Source: Thiospirochaeta perfilievii (GTDB taxonomy: Bacteria; Spirochaetota; Spirochaetia; DSM-2461). From it: a stretch of 64,000 bases of DNA. The notes beneath the pieces were generated by a model. It did not search any database. It had not been told where the DNA came from and saw only the letters and a program-made list of their open reading frames with translations. Below are positions 34,870 to 42,614 of the stretch, piece after piece. Positions within the stretch are counted from its first letter, which is position 1. Each line of letters opens with the position of its first letter. Location: contig NZ_CP035807.1 of NCBI RefSeq assembly GCF_008329945.1, positions 2,170,001 through 2,234,000 of the forward strand, written 5' to 3'. A program made the position numbers and the translations under genes.

Positions 34870-35772
34870 GTGGCAAACTATTTAGGGGAAATATCCGCAT
34901 TTGGTACTGTATTCTGTTGGGTTATCTGTTCTATAGCCTTTGAAAGTGCTGGTAAAAAAATAGGTTCAATGCCAGTTAATATAATTCGATTAGTGATGGC
35001 ATTTATTTTTATCTCAATTTTTACACTATTTAGTAGAGGTCTATTTTTTCCAGTAGATGCAACTCCAAAATCCTGGTTTTGGTTATCTCTATCTGGTGTT
35101 GTTGGTCTATTTATTGGTGATTTATGCCTTTTTAGAGCCTTTGTTTTAATAGGCTCAAGAATATCCCTTTTAATATACTCCCTTGCTCCACCTATATCTG
35201 CTCTGCTTGGTTTTTTTATGTTTAAGGAGACCATGTCTATCTATGCTATAGTTGGTATGTTTATTACTATTTTTGGAATAGGTTTAGTTATTTTAAAAAA
35301 GGATAATAAGAGATATAAATTTTCCCATCCCCTAGAGGGTGTTCTGTTGGCAATAATTGGTGCTGTGGGACAGGCATTTGGTATAGGGTTAAGTAAGTTG
35401 GGTATGGCTTTAGAGAGTGGGGGAACCTACGATCCAATTGCTTCAACACAGATAAGAATTATATCTGCAACAGTCTGTTTTATTATTCTATTTTTTATTA
35501 CAAAAAGATGGTCCTATGTTTTTAAATCCTTTAAAGATCTTAAGGCTATTGGGGATGTTGCCATAGGGTCATTTTTTGGGCCATTTATAGGTGTAACACT
35601 CTCCCTTGTTGCAATAACATATACAAGTATGGGAATTGCATCTACAATTACATCCATACTGCCTGTGGCAATAATAGTTCCCCACGTTTTCATTTACAAA
35701 ACAAAGATATTTAAAAGAGAAGTATTTGGGGCAATAGTGGCGGTTTTTGGTGTATCTCTACTCTTTATCTAG
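34870..35772 (+). CDS. EamA/DMT-superfamily transporter
   Basis: A 300-residue inner-membrane protein with ten hydrophobic helices arranged as two EamA repeats (about 5-140 and 155-300). GLFIGDLCLFRAFVLIGSRISLLI is the conserved helix 3-4 region of the first repeat and is mirrored near residue 240 (GPFIGVTLSLVAITYTSMGIASTI in part). DMT proteins export or import small metabolites; the substrate is unknown. The start is GTG at 34870, 2 nt after the upstream stop. The 3' end overlaps the convergent peptidase gene by 15 bp. Confidence 0.88.
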   Translation: MANYLGEISAFGTVFCWVICSIAFESAGKKIGSMPVNIIRLVMAFIFISIFTLFSRGLFFPVDATPKSWFWLSLSGVVGLFIGDLCLFRAFVLIGSRISLLIYSLAPPISALLGFFMFKETMSIYAIVGMFITIFGIGLVILKKDNKRYKFSHPLEGVLLAIIGAVGQAFGIGLSKLGMALESGGTYDPIASTQIRIISATVCFIILFFITKRWSYVFKSFKDLKAIGDVAIGSFFGPFIGVTLSLVAITYTSMGIASTITSILPVAIIVPHVFIYKTKIFKREVFGAIVAVFGVSLLFI

Positions 35773-36588
35773 GTAGTTAAGTAGGGAATTAATACCATTT
35801 AAAACCCTCTGACTATTATTTTTAGAGTCGCTATCTAGCTCTATATCTAGGGCTATGACCCTATCTATTTTACCGGTGTAAGCGATAAACTCCCCTTTAA
35901 ATCTATCTAAGATCGGGATAGCAGGTGAGTACATCATCTCTGGTTTATATCCAATTCCTTTTCCAAGTAATTGGGCTATTTCCCATGGACGACTCTCTAC
36001 AATAAAGTTATTTCCCCTAGTTATCTTGTACTCGGGGTATACTCTTCCCCCAGACATATACCCATGTAGAGAGAGGATAATAAGCTCAGAATGTCTCTCT
36101 AGTAGTCTATCAATTAAGTCTATTAAAACTTTTGTAGTTGGAAGAACTCTGTTTATAAAGTCCCTGTTGGGGTCAACATAGTGGTCTATACCATTTATAT
36201 ATGTATTTTGATTACCATAAAAGATCCTGTAGTAGAGAGTTTTATTGAATTTAGTTAGATCGCTACCATCTTTTATATATCCTCTACTATCTAACTGCTC
36301 CCTAAGATAACCCCTTCTATTAACCTCTTTAGAGTAGAGTGTTGGGTTGACCGATGGAATAAAATAGATTGTTTTATTTCCATTAAGAGTATCTTTTAAA
36401 AAGTTAGCAACTGTAACAGTTTCCCGCTCATCTCCGTGTATACCTGCTATTATTAAAAGTGCTCTATTAGAATCTACACCGTTATTGAATAGTAAAATAT
36501 CTCTTTTCCCTGAATCGAGACCTAAACTCTCTTGGGAGAAGAGAAGTTGGGATAGACTAAGTAATATGAATAAAAGTTTAATTTTCAT
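35758..36588 (-). CDS. Exported M14-like zinc carboxypeptidase/amidase
   Basis: A 276-residue protein with a signal peptide (about 1-18, ending LLFSQ). The zinc site of the M14/AstE fold is visible: GIHGDE near residues 49-54 (His and Glu ligands), SLHGY near 174 (third ligand, His) and a candidate catalytic Glu in ALDIELD near 250. DPNRDF matches the substrate-Arg motif (NRD) of MpaA-like murein-peptide amidases. It may trim cell-wall peptides. It is 88 nt downstream of the ECF S-component gene, with a hairpin in between. The ATG lacks a ribosome site. Confidence 0.78.
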   Translation of the reverse strand: MKIKLLFILLSLSQLLFSQESLGLDSGKRDILLFNNGVDSNRALLIIAGIHGDERETVTVANFLKDTLNGNKTIYFIPSVNPTLYSKEVNRRGYLREQLDSRGYIKDGSDLTKFNKTLYYRIFYGNQNTYINGIDHYVDPNRDFINRVLPTTKVLIDLIDRLLERHSELIILSLHGYMSGGRVYPEYKITRGNNFIVESRPWEIAQLLGKGIGYKPEMMYSPAIPILDRFKGEFIAYTGKIDRVIALDIELDSDSKNNSQRVLNGINSLLNYLDKE

Positions 36589-36675: not shown

Positions 36676-37197
36676 TTAGTTACTCTCTTTTTTAATAATT
36701 TTACTTGCTACTAAAAAGAGAATTCGTCCTCCAATAATACCTCCAAAAAGCTGGATAGTATTAGTTGGGAAAACTTCACCAATAGCCATCTCCATTCCAC
36801 CTATATCCTTTAAGAAAAAAGCTTCTCCAATAAAATAGGTTGCAACCATTAATAGACCACCAGTCAATAGTAGTAGAAGATGTTTTATACCTTTTTTATT
36901 ATAAGATAGGTAGGCCATGGAAGCCTCTAAACCCTTAGCTATAAGAGTCATAGGTGCAAACATTCCATACCCTATAACTATATCTGCTGTTGCCGCCCCA
37001 AGACCAGCTACTAAAAATGCGGCTATCATATTTCCCCAATCACCCTCTTTAATAAAGTGGGCTATAAATAATCCTGCAAAAACAACTGCAATATCACTAA
37101 AATTGAAAAAACCCACACCTACAGGTACCGCTATAAATATAGTTGTAAGTGTCACTGTTGCAAATAATACTAATAAAGTAATTACCCTTTTTGTCAT
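36676..37197 (-). CDS. ECF transporter S component (HmpT/PF07155-like)
   Basis: A 173-residue integral membrane protein with five or six helices. The segments FFNFSDIAVVFAGLF and ATADIVIGYGMFAPMTLIAKGLEA match the YpdP/HmpT-type S components (pattern NLGDxxxxLA then GYxxYAPxTFIIKGL), which bind vitamins such as hydroxymethylpyrimidine or related B6 and B1 precursors. The ligand itself cannot be read from sequence. It is the fourth gene of the ECF unit and overlaps the T component gene by 4 nt. S components give substrate specificity and work with the T and A subunits encoded upstream. Confidence 0.82.
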   Translation of the reverse strand: MTKRVITLLVLFATVTLTTIFIAVPVGVGFFNFSDIAVVFAGLFIAHFIKEGDWGNMIAAFLVAGLGAATADIVIGYGMFAPMTLIAKGLEASMAYLSYNKKGIKHLLLLLTGGLLMVATYFIGEAFFLKDIGGMEMAIGEVFPTNTIQLFGGIIGGRILFLVASKIIKKESN

Positions 37198-37823
37198 ATT
37201 TTCTCCTCTAATACTCTCTCTCTCTCTAAGAGAATTTTATATTTTGTTTCAAAACCTCTATATATTCCAAAAAATAGGGTTAATGGAACCGCTAAATAGT
37301 GATAAATTTTTTGTAGCCCCCTATTTGTTCTGTTTAGTGGGTGATATTCATAATGTATTTTTAATCTCTCCATTACCTCTGTTCCAGAGACCATTAATAT
37401 GTAAAAAATCTTACTTAGAGGACTATTTCCTGTTAAAAGGATTATATCTATAAACCCTATCTTAGAAAATATAATATTTATAAATGCAAAGAGGTTTGGA
37501 ATAATGAAAATTCTTAATACAATAGATTTCCATCTCTCTATATAAAATTCTAAAGCAAATTCTCTACCCATTACTAGGTATTTATATGTAAAAAATATTG
37601 TGTGTAGAAGAACTATTGCTATAAGTAAAAATTTTGTAAAGTTTAGAAAAGTAAGAAGTCTCTCTCTGTTACTTAAAAAAAAGTAGGTAGTGAATATAAG
37701 AAAAATCGTAAGCTGATAGGGTATGCTCTCTCTAAAAACAGTGGTTGAAGTTATTACAAATACAAATATTTGCAGAGTATATAAAATAAACTTAAACCTA
37801 GCTTTAACTATTAAAGAGTTCAA
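37194..37823 (-). CDS. ECF transporter T component (EcfT-like), divergent
   Basis: A 209-residue membrane protein with about five helices, placed between ATPase genes and an S component, which is the main reason for the call. The C-terminal cytoplasmic coupling region shows only one clear relative of the ARG motif, GIYRGFETKYK near residue 187, and the other is hard to find. EcfT normally contacts both ATPases through two Ala-Arg-Gly/Ser motifs in long coupling helices; here they are eroded along with the ATPases. It overlaps the S component gene by 4 nt and the ATPase gene by 20 nt. Confidence 0.72.
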   Translation of the reverse strand: MNSLIVKARFKFILYTLQIFVFVITSTTVFRESIPYQLTIFLIFTTYFFLSNRERLLTFLNFTKFLLIAIVLLHTIFFTYKYLVMGREFALEFYIERWKSIVLRIFIIPNLFAFINIIFSKIGFIDIILLTGNSPLSKIFYILMVSGTEVMERLKIHYEYHPLNRTNRGLQKIYHYLAVPLTLFFGIYRGFETKYKILLERERVLEEKI

Positions 37824-38397
37824 TATTAACTCCTCCCTCTTTACTACTTAGCTGTAGGGTTTGATACTCTGTTTTGAAAAGATGAGAAATAATAAATATA
37901 TGTTTACACTTTAGGTTCTCTACAAAAGTTATAAAATCTTCAACTTTCCCAAAGTACTTATCAGCCTCGTCAAATATAACCACATCTAAATTACTATATT
38001 TAGAACACTCAGTAATAATAAAACTCTTTTTTGAGTCGTCTGTTGGGGTTAGTGTTGTCTCATCATTAAACTCAAGGGGTATATTATTGTGACTATCATC
38101 ATTTAAAAAAATTGTTTTAAAAAAAGACCCCTGCTTTTTAAGAGTTTCAACAAATACTTTTACTAGATTTATAAGGTTATAACAGAGTATCTGATTCTCA
38201 ATATCCTGGGCAAAATAGAGTATAGATTTATCCTGTTTTTTTAGCTCTTTAAGTAGTACCCCTTCTATAAAGCGACTTTTACCTACCCCATTCTCTCCTT
38301 TTATAAGATATATACCTGTTGGGGAATCTATGCTCTCTTTTAGATTGTAAGTTAGTTGGGATAGTTTATCGTTGTATACTCCCTTCCTAAGCAACAT
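37804..38397 (-). CDS. Reduced ECF ATPase: Walker A/B subunit without a signature motif
   Basis: A 197-residue ABC-type ATPase. Visible motifs: Walker A GENGVGKS (34-41), Q-loop Gln in FAQDIENQI (Q64), Walker B LDVVIFDEAD (D143, E144 as catalytic Glu) and H-loop His in IFIISHLF (H172). Between Q-loop and Walker B, where LSGGQ should lie, the sequence is acidic and Asn/Thr-rich with no signature at all. Normal EcfA subunits have about 275 residues. The upstream partner has the missing motif and lacks this gene's motifs, so the pair can form one composite ATP site. It overlaps the partner gene by 11 nt and the T gene by 20 nt. Confidence 0.8.
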   Translation of the reverse strand: MLLRKGVYNDKLSQLTYNLKESIDSPTGIYLIKGENGVGKSRFIEGVLLKELKKQDKSILYFAQDIENQILCYNLINLVKVFVETLKKQGSFFKTIFLNDDSHNNIPLEFNDETTLTPTDDSKKSFIITECSKYSNLDVVIFDEADKYFGKVEDFITFVENLKCKHIFIISHLFKTEYQTLQLSSKEGGVNIELFNS

Positions 38398-38728
38398 ATA
38401 TACCCCTCTCTTCTAGGTATTTTTCTAGCTTCTCTCTGCTTTTAGGAGATAGGGATTGGGTTATATTTACTAAATTTAGGGTTACTTTTTCTAACTTCTT
38501 TTCCAATATTATATAACTTAGAGTTACAAGATACGCTATTGATCGTTGCCCACCACTTAGTGTATTTATGTTTCTTGATGGTTCAATTTTATAATTGAAC
38601 TTTGTTTCTATGTCTATAAGAATTTTTTTTTCTATCTCTGTATAATTCCATATATCATTTAAGAGTAGTTCATCCTTTATTCTGTTAGATATAAACTCTT
38701 TATTATACTCAATTGTTAAAAACCTCAT
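38387..38728 (-). CDS. Reduced ECF ATPase: signature-motif subunit without Walker A
   Basis: A 113-residue protein that matches only the second half of an ABC ATPase: it starts near the Q-loop region, continues through the helical domain, and has a perfect signature NTLSGGQRS (57-61 LSGGQ). What should be Walker B reads VTLNLVNITQSLSPKSRE, without the Asp and Glu but with a D-loop-like SLSPKSRE. Walker A is absent. The gene is not a fragment by frame: the ATG has AGGGAG 4 nt upstream, and the stop overlaps the next gene by 11 nt. In an ABC dimer the signature of one subunit faces the Walker A of the other, so this protein supplies exactly what its neighbour lacks. Confidence 0.78.
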   Translation of the reverse strand: MRFLTIEYNKEFISNRIKDELLLNDIWNYTEIEKKILIDIETKFNYKIEPSRNINTLSGGQRSIAYLVTLSYIILEKKLEKVTLNLVNITQSLSPKSREKLEKYLEERGIYVA

Positions 38729-38799: not shown

Positions 38800-39450
38800 A
38801 TGATTTTTAAAGGTAATTCAGTTTTAGTAAGTAAAAAAGATAATAGTGTTCTGTTAGAAAATGTGGGTGATGATGCAGAGTTTATCCCTTTAATGGATTT
38901 AGCTTCCCTTATAAGTGGTCAGGAGCTTAATAATATATTAAAAGAGTATCAGGTAGATAATTGGAAGCGACGTCATAACTTTTGTGGTACCTGTGGCAGT
39001 AAAACAACATTCGATATTGATGATCAGTGTATGGTTTGTCCAAAGTGTCAAGAACGTTTTTATCAAGCTATGTTTCCTGCAATAATTGTCTCAATAATAA
39101 AGGATGATAAAATTTTATTAGCCCATAATAAGAACTTTCCTGAGAATTTGTATTCTGTAGTTGCAGGTTTTGTGGATATAGGGGAAAACCTTGAAGAGAC
39201 TGTAGCCAGGGAGATAAGGGAAGAGGTTGGAATTGAGGTTAAGAATATAAAATATTTTGCAAGTCAAAACTGGGGTTTTACATCATCCCTAATGTTAGCA
39301 TTTACTGCTGAGTATAGTTCAGGAGAGATTGTAGTAGATCAAGAGGAGATAGACAGAGCAGATTGGTTTACTCGGGAAAATTTACCGGATCTGCCTCCTA
39401 AGATTAGTATTTCTAGGGATTTAATAGATCATTATGTTACAGGGATGTAA
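38800..39450 (+). CDS. nudC: NADH pyrophosphatase NudC-like Nudix hydrolase
   Basis: A 216-residue protein with the NudC layout: an N-terminal domain, a four-cysteine zinc ribbon (CGTCGSKT and CPKCQ with CMVCP between, about 64-90), then a Nudix domain. The Nudix box is GFVDIGENLEETVAREIREEVGI, landmark residues about 126-148, with the REx2EE catalytic core. NudC-type enzymes cleave NADH and remove NAD caps from RNA. It is shorter than E. coli NudC (257). The SQNWGFTSSLMLAF segment matches the NudC-specific SQPWPFPxSLM motif, which separates it from other Nudix proteins. Confidence 0.92.
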   Translation: MIFKGNSVLVSKKDNSVLLENVGDDAEFIPLMDLASLISGQELNNILKEYQVDNWKRRHNFCGTCGSKTTFDIDDQCMVCPKCQERFYQAMFPAIIVSIIKDDKILLAHNKNFPENLYSVVAGFVDIGENLEETVAREIREEVGIEVKNIKYFASQNWGFTSSLMLAFTAEYSSGEIVVDQEEIDRADWFTRENLPDLPPKISISRDLIDHYVTGM

Positions 39451-41673: not shown

Positions 41674-41779
41674 AGACGGAGAGTTAGTTCTCTAGATAAT
41701 AAATGTGAGAGTTTTCAGACAACATTGAATGCTCAACTGAAAACATTTCTAAAGCCGGCCAGTATAACCGGCTTTTTTT
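41674..41779 (+). ncRNA. Candidate small RNA of about 105 nt, unknown family
   Basis: The stretch between tRNA-Leu and rlmN has no open reading frame of note but contains, in order on the plus strand, a promoter, a small AGAG/CTCT hairpin (41680-41693), a perfect 8-bp stem GTTTTCAG/CTGAAAAC (41711-41718 and 41737-41744) around an 18-nt loop, and a GC-rich terminator with a T run. This is the layout of a free-standing sRNA. It does not match 6S, tmRNA, SRP or RNase P RNA in size or motifs. The neighbour on the right is transcribed toward it, so the terminator is not explained by an upstream gene on the plus strand. Confidence 0.55.
41751..41779 (+). terminator. Strong terminator (small RNA; also serves rlmN side)
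   Basis: AAAGCCGG (41751-41758) pairs with CCGGCTTT (41768-41775) around a 9-nt loop and runs into seven T. It touches the rlmN stop codon, so it may also stop that transcript from the other side, but the long T run is only on the plus strand. Confidence 0.8.
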
Positions 41780-42602
41780 AATTAATAACTCCTAGCTGTC
41801 CACAAGCCCCAGCAATTTCTTGTCCTTTACCATGTCTAATGGTTACTTTTAAGCCTAAGTTATAGAGAAAACTTGAAAACTTCTCCACATTTTCCATTGT
41901 AGGTTCTTGAAAGTTTTTACCTGGAACATAGTTATATGGAATTAAATTTATTATAACATCCAGACCCTCTAGAAAGTCCCTAATCTCTATTGCCTCGTTA
42001 AGGGACTCATTTATACCCTGGAAGTTTATTATTTCGATTATCAACCGTTTATTTGTTTTTTGTTGGTACTGTTTAAGGCTCTCTTTTATTTCGGAGAGTT
42101 TAGGTGTATTGGGCATAAGTTTATATCTTAGATCTTGGTTTGCTGTAATTAAGGAGAAGGCTAATCCTGGGAAAGGAGGGTTTTTTAGAAGTTTGTCCAT
42201 ACCAGTTATTGCACCGCTAGTAGATATTGTAATTCTCCTTAGAAAAATATTGTATGTTTTAGGGTTTGTAAATGTTTTTATCGAAGTTAGAACATTGTCA
42301 ATATTGTGCAGAGGTTCACCCATTCCCATATAAACTATGTTGGTTATATCCCTTTGGAAAACGTCTTTAAGTGCTTCAAACTGCCAAATAATCTCTGAAC
42401 TAGTAAGATTTCTTTTTAGTCCCATAGTTGCAGTTTGGCAAAATTGACAATTTTGAGCACAACCTACCTGACAACTTAAACATGCTGTAACTCTATCTGA
42501 TTGATCGATAAGTAGGACGCTTTCAATAATTGAGTTATCATCTAATTTAATTGCAATTTTTCCTGTATTATCAATTGCTCTAAGGGTTTTTATTACTTTC
42601 AT
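41778..42602 (-). CDS. rlmN: RlmN-family radical SAM rRNA/tRNA methyltransferase, short form
   Basis: RlmN methylates C2 of A2503 in 23S rRNA and A37 in some tRNAs. The radical SAM motif is CQVGCAQNCQFC (CxxxCxxC inside it) followed by TATMGLKRNLTSSEI; the C-terminal catalytic Cys lies in IAGACGQLGV, and the earlier conserved Cys is in TACLSCQVGC. At about 274 residues it lacks the N-terminal helical domain of about 85 residues that contacts the RNA in E. coli RlmN. I start at the ATG ending at 42600; a TTG at 42608 is possible, and neither has a ribosome site. It lies 12 nt after the chemoreceptor stop in the same direction. A second full-length RlmN may exist elsewhere. Confidence 0.85.
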   Translation of the reverse strand: MKVIKTLRAIDNTGKIAIKLDDNSIIESVLLIDQSDRVTACLSCQVGCAQNCQFCQTATMGLKRNLTSSEIIWQFEALKDVFQRDITNIVYMGMGEPLHNIDNVLTSIKTFTNPKTYNIFLRRITISTSGAITGMDKLLKNPPFPGLAFSLITANQDLRYKLMPNTPKLSEIKESLKQYQQKTNKRLIIEIINFQGINESLNEAIEIRDFLEGLDVIINLIPYNYVPGKNFQEPTMENVEKFSSFLYNLGLKVTIRHGKGQEIAGACGQLGVIN

Positions 42603-42614
42603 TGCCAAATATTA

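Follow-up and report, generated by a model that had tools for sequence, protein, structure and literature searches.

A question of long standing is how many ATP molecules, one or two, an ABC transporter requires per cycle, and whether both nucleotide sites are needed. Most work on it has used point mutants or natural heterodimers in which two nucleotides are still bound. Heterodimeric ABC transporters such as TM287/288, TmrAB, TAP and CFTR combine one competent composite site with one degenerate site, and, to our knowledge, both domains of the described degenerate-site heterodimers keep their P-loops and the full fold. In the ATPase heads of SMC and Rad50 proteins, one lobe contributes Walker A and another the signature; SMC heads unite the two lobes and form two sites per dimer. 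In one energy-coupling factor (ECF) module that has been studied, the closed state brings ATP on one subunit into contact with the partner's signature motif, and closure moves the coupling helices of EcfT and expels the S component (PMC10368641). Removal of either catalytic glutamate severely impairs the function of Lactobacillus ECF modules (PMC10368641), so a motor with one site would have to work differently.

Here we describe a locus of Thiospirochaeta perfilievii in which the parts for a second site appear to be absent. The window, the whole stretch of DNA that was analysed, comprises 64,000 nucleotides of contig NZ_CP035807.1. Its reading frames include four overlapping genes on the minus strand (38728–36676) that encode, in order, a 113-aa protein, a 197-aa protein, a 209-aa membrane protein in the T position and a 173-aa S component:

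38387..38728, minus strand: 113-aa protein, C-terminal half of an EcfA nucleotide-binding domain of the domain 1 type, with the signature motif only
37804..38397, minus strand: 197-aa protein, reduced EcfA nucleotide-binding domain of the domain 2 type, with the ATP-binding side only and without a signature
37194..37823, minus strand: all-helical membrane protein of 209 aa at the place of EcfT; its sequence does not prove the family
36676..37197, minus strand: S component of the riboflavin-type family PF07155, 173 aa
35758..36588, minus strand: secreted zinc-hydrolase-like protein with weak M14/AstE similarity, a same-strand neighbour that is also beside the operon in the second species described below

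An earlier note on this DNA had reported two adjacent, overlapping ATPase genes with a clean ribosome site, and its frames, coordinates and residue numbers all proved correct. The 113-mer and 197-mer genes overlap by 11 bases, the 197-mer and T genes by 20 bases and the T and S genes by 4 bases; the 113-mer gene is preceded by the ribosome site AGGGAGAGAG-ATG, and its orthologue in the second species by AGGGAGAACA-ATG. The reading that we prefer, with a probability of roughly 0.7, is that the four genes encode a dedicated ECF-type importer, the ATPase motor of which has one ATP site and descends from an asymmetric EcfA-A protein. Like the group II ECF module of Lactobacillus delbrueckii (EcfA/EcfA'/EcfT with FolT2 or CbrT; PMC10368641), this importer would have two ATPases, a T and an S component, and it would bind ATP as that module does, with Walker A from one ATPase and LSGGQ from its partner. 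The L. delbrueckii module differs in that both of its ATPases are full length and both of its sites are ATP-bound when closed (PMC10368641).

The catalytic motifs are divided between the first two proteins as follows:

38546..38560, minus strand: LSGGQ signature, residues 57–61 of the 113-mer, invariant in the orthologue
38275..38298, minus strand: Walker A GENGVGKS, residues 34–41 of the 197-mer
38206..38208, minus strand: Gln64 of the 197-mer, the Q-loop residue, aligned with the Q-loop in domain 2 of fused EcfA-A proteins
37966..37971, minus strand: Walker B Asp143 and catalytic Glu144 (IFDEAD) of the 197-mer, in the 'DExD' form of domain 2
37882..37884, minus strand: switch His172 (IISH) of the 197-mer, aligned to the domain 2 His

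Rather than recurring in each domain, Walker A, Walker B with the catalytic Glu, the Q-loop and the switch His are present only in the 197-mer, and the LSGGQ signature is present only in the 113-mer. The 113-mer has neither the P-loop half nor the catalytic Glu nor the switch His, which leaves LSGGQ as its sole piece of the ABC catalytic set; the Walker B position reads LNLVN, with neither Asp nor Glu. No LSGGQ-like motif occurs anywhere in the 197-mer. The earlier note's account of the two motif sets, residue by residue, is thereby confirmed, and its proposal of complementary losses, after which the pair could complete one composite site and no other, is supported by motif content: in both species the two proteins together hold one complete composite site and one incomplete site, and the P-loop at the degenerate site is missing from the 113-mer and from its orthologue alike.

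The 113-mer gene is separated by 71 bases from the start of a divergent NUDIX gene on its upstream side, which leaves no room for a lost or hidden N-terminal half. A missing N-terminus or a frameshift in the 113-mer was considered and ruled out, the boundary being identical in two assemblies and the divergent gene only 71 bases away. The NUDIX protein (38800–39450 of the window) is NADH-pyrophosphatase-like with a zinc ribbon and is divergent from the operon in both species. Further away, at 41778–42608, is a short RlmN/Cfr-like radical SAM protein of 276 aa, and a 273-aa relative of it is encoded near the operon of the second species (L026:5784–6605); RlmN is usually longer than this. Neither a riboswitch near the operon nor a plasmid copy of the 197-mer was found.

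In other spirochaete genera, homologues of the S component adjoin, in most loci read, a T gene and one fused EcfA-A gene of about 440–510 residues, mostly in the operon order AA-T-S (that is, A1-A2-T-S) where the surroundings were read. This fused type is widespread across the class, and the one T protein from such operons that was checked belongs to the CbiQ family. We aligned 26 fused EcfA-A proteins (alignment A9: L027, L028, L030, L032–L034, L038 and L039, together with 18 of the loci L059–L084). Domain 1 has an LSGG or TSGG signature and intact Walker A and Walker B in 26/26, and its switch His is replaced in every case (Lys in 24, Arg in 2). Domain 2 shows the converse pattern: Walker A, a DExD Walker B (DEAD in 20/26) and the His are intact in all 26, and the signature has in all 26 been eroded to an MS[YF]G-like form that has lost the double Gly. 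From this asymmetry of motifs it follows that the fused transporters already hold one regular and one degenerate composite site. As read from the sequences, the regular site consists of the ATP side of domain 2 and the signature of domain 1. Such a family-wide one-site asymmetry of the fused spirochaete EcfA-A proteins may not have been described so far.

The 113/197 system resembles the fused EcfA-A systems with PF07155 in operon order, in the family of the S component and in the direction of the asymmetry. The fused proteins carry both P-loops and both Walker B acids on one polypeptide, whereas here there are two genes, 310 residues in total and one P-loop. In profile–profile comparison, the 113-mer aligned to the C-terminal half of domain 1 (probability 91, 79 columns; domain 2 reached only 0.3), with a score of 43 against at most 19 for column-shuffled controls, 0/100 of which reached it. 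The 197-mer matched the whole of domain 2 (probability 97.6, 142 columns), with a score of 81 against at most 21 for the shuffled controls (again 0/100), and matched domain 1 over only 24 columns around Walker A. The canonical EcfA proteins of the same genome scored more weakly than domain 1 for the 113-mer and than domain 2 for the 197-mer, in a control profile of only two sequences. These matches to domain 1 and domain 2 thus identify an EcfA ATPase domain pair, both members reduced, in which the first gene is the counterpart of domain 1 and the second that of domain 2, with the ancestral order kept. What each protein has lost is precisely the portion that belongs to the degenerate site.

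General libraries recover little of this. Searches of Pfam, NCBIfam and PDB sequences assigned the 113-mer to no family and gave only sub-threshold P-loop matches for the 197-mer, the best in Pfam being AAA_22 (1.3e-4) and DEAD (1.7e-4), below their cut-offs, and not ABC_tran. Together with a T-position protein that cannot be recognised as EcfT, these weak matches might indicate that the 197-mer is a P-loop ATPase of another kind, AAA or DEAD-like, and that the operon is not an ECF motor. We regard this as extremely unlikely, given the far stronger match to the EcfA domain 2 profile over 142 columns, the S component and the gene order; the DEAD tetrapeptide is itself a domain 2 feature, found in 20/26 fused proteins. 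An AlphaFold2 model of the 113-mer from a two-sequence alignment (pLDDT 73, pTM 0.65) has the order strand, two helices, LSGGQ helix, Walker B strand, helix, strand, with LSGGQ at the helix start. This is the order of the C-terminal half of an ABC domain, which is supportive but not proof. Foldseek with this model gave no significant match (none with E below 0.001), and ABC ATPases were prominent among its best matches (LptB, probability 0.90; MsbA, 0.85).

The same mapping bears on stoichiometry. The 113-mer resembles the signature lobe of SMC/Rad50 proteins on its own, and in those heads, too, Walker A is on one lobe and the signature with Walker B on the other; SMC C-lobes are among the weak matches of the 113-mer, which contains the signature that the 197-mer lacks. 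The proteins could accordingly assemble in another ratio, for example as (197+113)2, in which the 113-mer would supply the signature subdomain in trans to each 197-mer and two ATP sites would result. This seems unlikely to us, as the 113-mer fits domain 1, the 197-mer fits domain 2 over its full extent, the eroded helical region included, and the genes follow the order of the fused proteins, which is the pattern of two different domains and not of one split domain. Set beside SMC heads, with two sites per dimer, a one-to-one 113/197 pair would have the parts for one.

Among the genomes searched, the pair is present in that of the window and in one further genome of the same genus, the partial metagenome-assembled genome Spirochaetales bacterium SZUA-382 (QKAW01000038.1; our G002), in which gene order and flanks are unchanged. 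Identity between the two species is 50% for the 113-mer, 52% for the 197-mer, 57% for the T-position protein and 78% for the S component. All motifs listed above are invariant in the SZUA-382 orthologues, and the identical motifs are missing there; the 113-mer orthologue retains an Asp in the Walker B strand and, like the 113-mer, carries Asn where the catalytic Glu would be. With all motifs retained although the orthologues are only 50% (113-mer) and 52% (197-mer) identical, the pattern is more than chance. In a third genome of the genus (G001), the S component, the ATPases and the neighbouring NUDIX gene were not found, and because this assembly is 81% complete, loss and missing sequence are not separable there.

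Both ATPase domains are much reduced in comparison with every relative found in other genera, and the T-position protein is shorter and unrecognisable, as would be expected if the operon were decaying and its ATPase genes were remnants of a dead or nearly dead transporter. The estimates of dN and dS (Nei–Gojobori, NG86) are 0.42 and 2.5 for the 113-mer, 0.41 and 2.8 for the 197-mer, 0.35 and 1.9 for the T gene and 0.14 and 1.6 for the S gene. The resulting ratio for the two ATPase genes, about 0.15–0.17 in this two-species comparison and rough because synonymous sites are saturated, is well below 1, and decay is therefore unlikely; on these values, neutral drift at the four operon genes is excluded. 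The overlapping frames are intact, and ribosome sites and all catalytic motifs have been kept in two species while synonymous sites became saturated. We consider decay highly improbable and largely refuted. The arrangement has been kept in a species with about 50% identity, and so looks like a working, stripped-down machine and not a dying gene.

Stable evolution was also what the earlier note had claimed, and it is borne out by these low ratios, where a value near 1 would have spoken for decay, by the intact frames and by the motifs kept in the second species. Its suggestion that the same pair be sought in related spirochaetes led to same-genus orthologues that are equally reduced. The note had further taken full-length relatives as evidence against a one-site pair, and here the outcome is divided: the orthologues within the genus are reduced, but other genera do have full-length domains, yet these are already asymmetric and hence explain the reduction and do not refute it.

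The T and S components that the note had placed downstream fared differently. The S component matches PF07155 above the cut-off (E = 7e-10) and was aligned with nine relatives; its family suggests that the transported substrate is a flavin or a similar vitamin. The T-position protein has the right position, is all-helical and hydrophobic, and is called EcfT on these features and its length, not by a family match: it has no CbiQ match in Pfam, 7/100 shuffles score as high in the profile comparison, and its structure model is poor (pLDDT 51). It seems shorter at the C-terminus than the T proteins of relatives, in an alignment that is unreliable. A phylum-wide profile search with it returned itself and weak matches, nearly all with internal stop codons. 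The protein has no detectable relatives beyond the genus, despite 57% identity inside it. Possibly a strongly reduced EcfT, it may have co-evolved with ATPases that are themselves reduced. On the strand of the operon, the S gene is followed directly by the hydrolase-like gene (35758–36588), the product of which might release the transported compound from a conjugate.

The genome also holds two ordinary ECF systems with full-length ATPases, one CbiMNQO-like (L024 5837–8202) and one BioMNY-like (L025 7229–9244), and group II ECF systems are known to share ATPases. Power could then come from a full-length ATPase of the CbiO or BioM type encoded elsewhere, with the 113/197 pair regulating transport or merely binding nucleotide. 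This is very unlikely in our view: every catalytic residue is kept in the 197-mer, which would be needless for a regulator, the pair occupies the exact place of fused EcfA-A in relatives, and the single PF07155 S component found in the genome points to a dedicated module.

What is established about the one-site importer that we propose is its motif content and the purifying selection on it, the homology of its two ATPases with domains 1 and 2, the order of the genes and the identity of the S component. In its mechanism, the 197-mer would supply the entire nucleotide-binding side (Walker A, Q-loop, Walker B, catalytic Glu and switch His), and the 113-mer would give only the LSGGQ face, closing on the ATP held by the 197-mer. 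By analogy with ordinary ECF importers, ATP-driven closure at this single interface would move the coupling helices of the T protein, and the S component would be expelled or reset. Dimer formation, ATP hydrolysis, this coupling step and the identity of the T protein are elements that we infer within the best explanation. As to origin, the starting point would be an asymmetric EcfA-A with a second site that was already degenerate, the ATP-binding half of which was then deleted. The pair is best read, from its sequences, as the end point of a motor that was already asymmetric and whose degenerate site was deleted.

On balance, we favour the broader interpretation that this is a natural ABC motor with a single ATP site, in which one domain has been pared to a signature-presenting half-domain unable to bind nucleotide, and which evolved in steps from an asymmetric EcfA-A with a second site that had earlier become degenerate across spirochaetes. 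Heterodimers of the TM287/288 type keep the P-loops of their degenerate sites, whereas in the 113/197 pair the half for the second nucleotide is absent. An ABC partner cut to a signature-bearing half-domain, with the second nucleotide site physically absent, would be the new aspect; no half-domain partner of this kind was described in the open-access literature searched.

Because the second site would be physically absent, a purified complex would answer the question of one or two sites without the ambiguity of a silent occupied site. Since either Glu is essential in one tested ECF module, an ECF transporter with one site would show that the requirement for two sites is not inherent to ECF toppling. 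The fused relatives would represent the intermediate stage and make it possible to trace how two sites became one. If our reading is true, these spirochaetes have a natural motor without a second nucleotide site, and their relatives show the stage in between.
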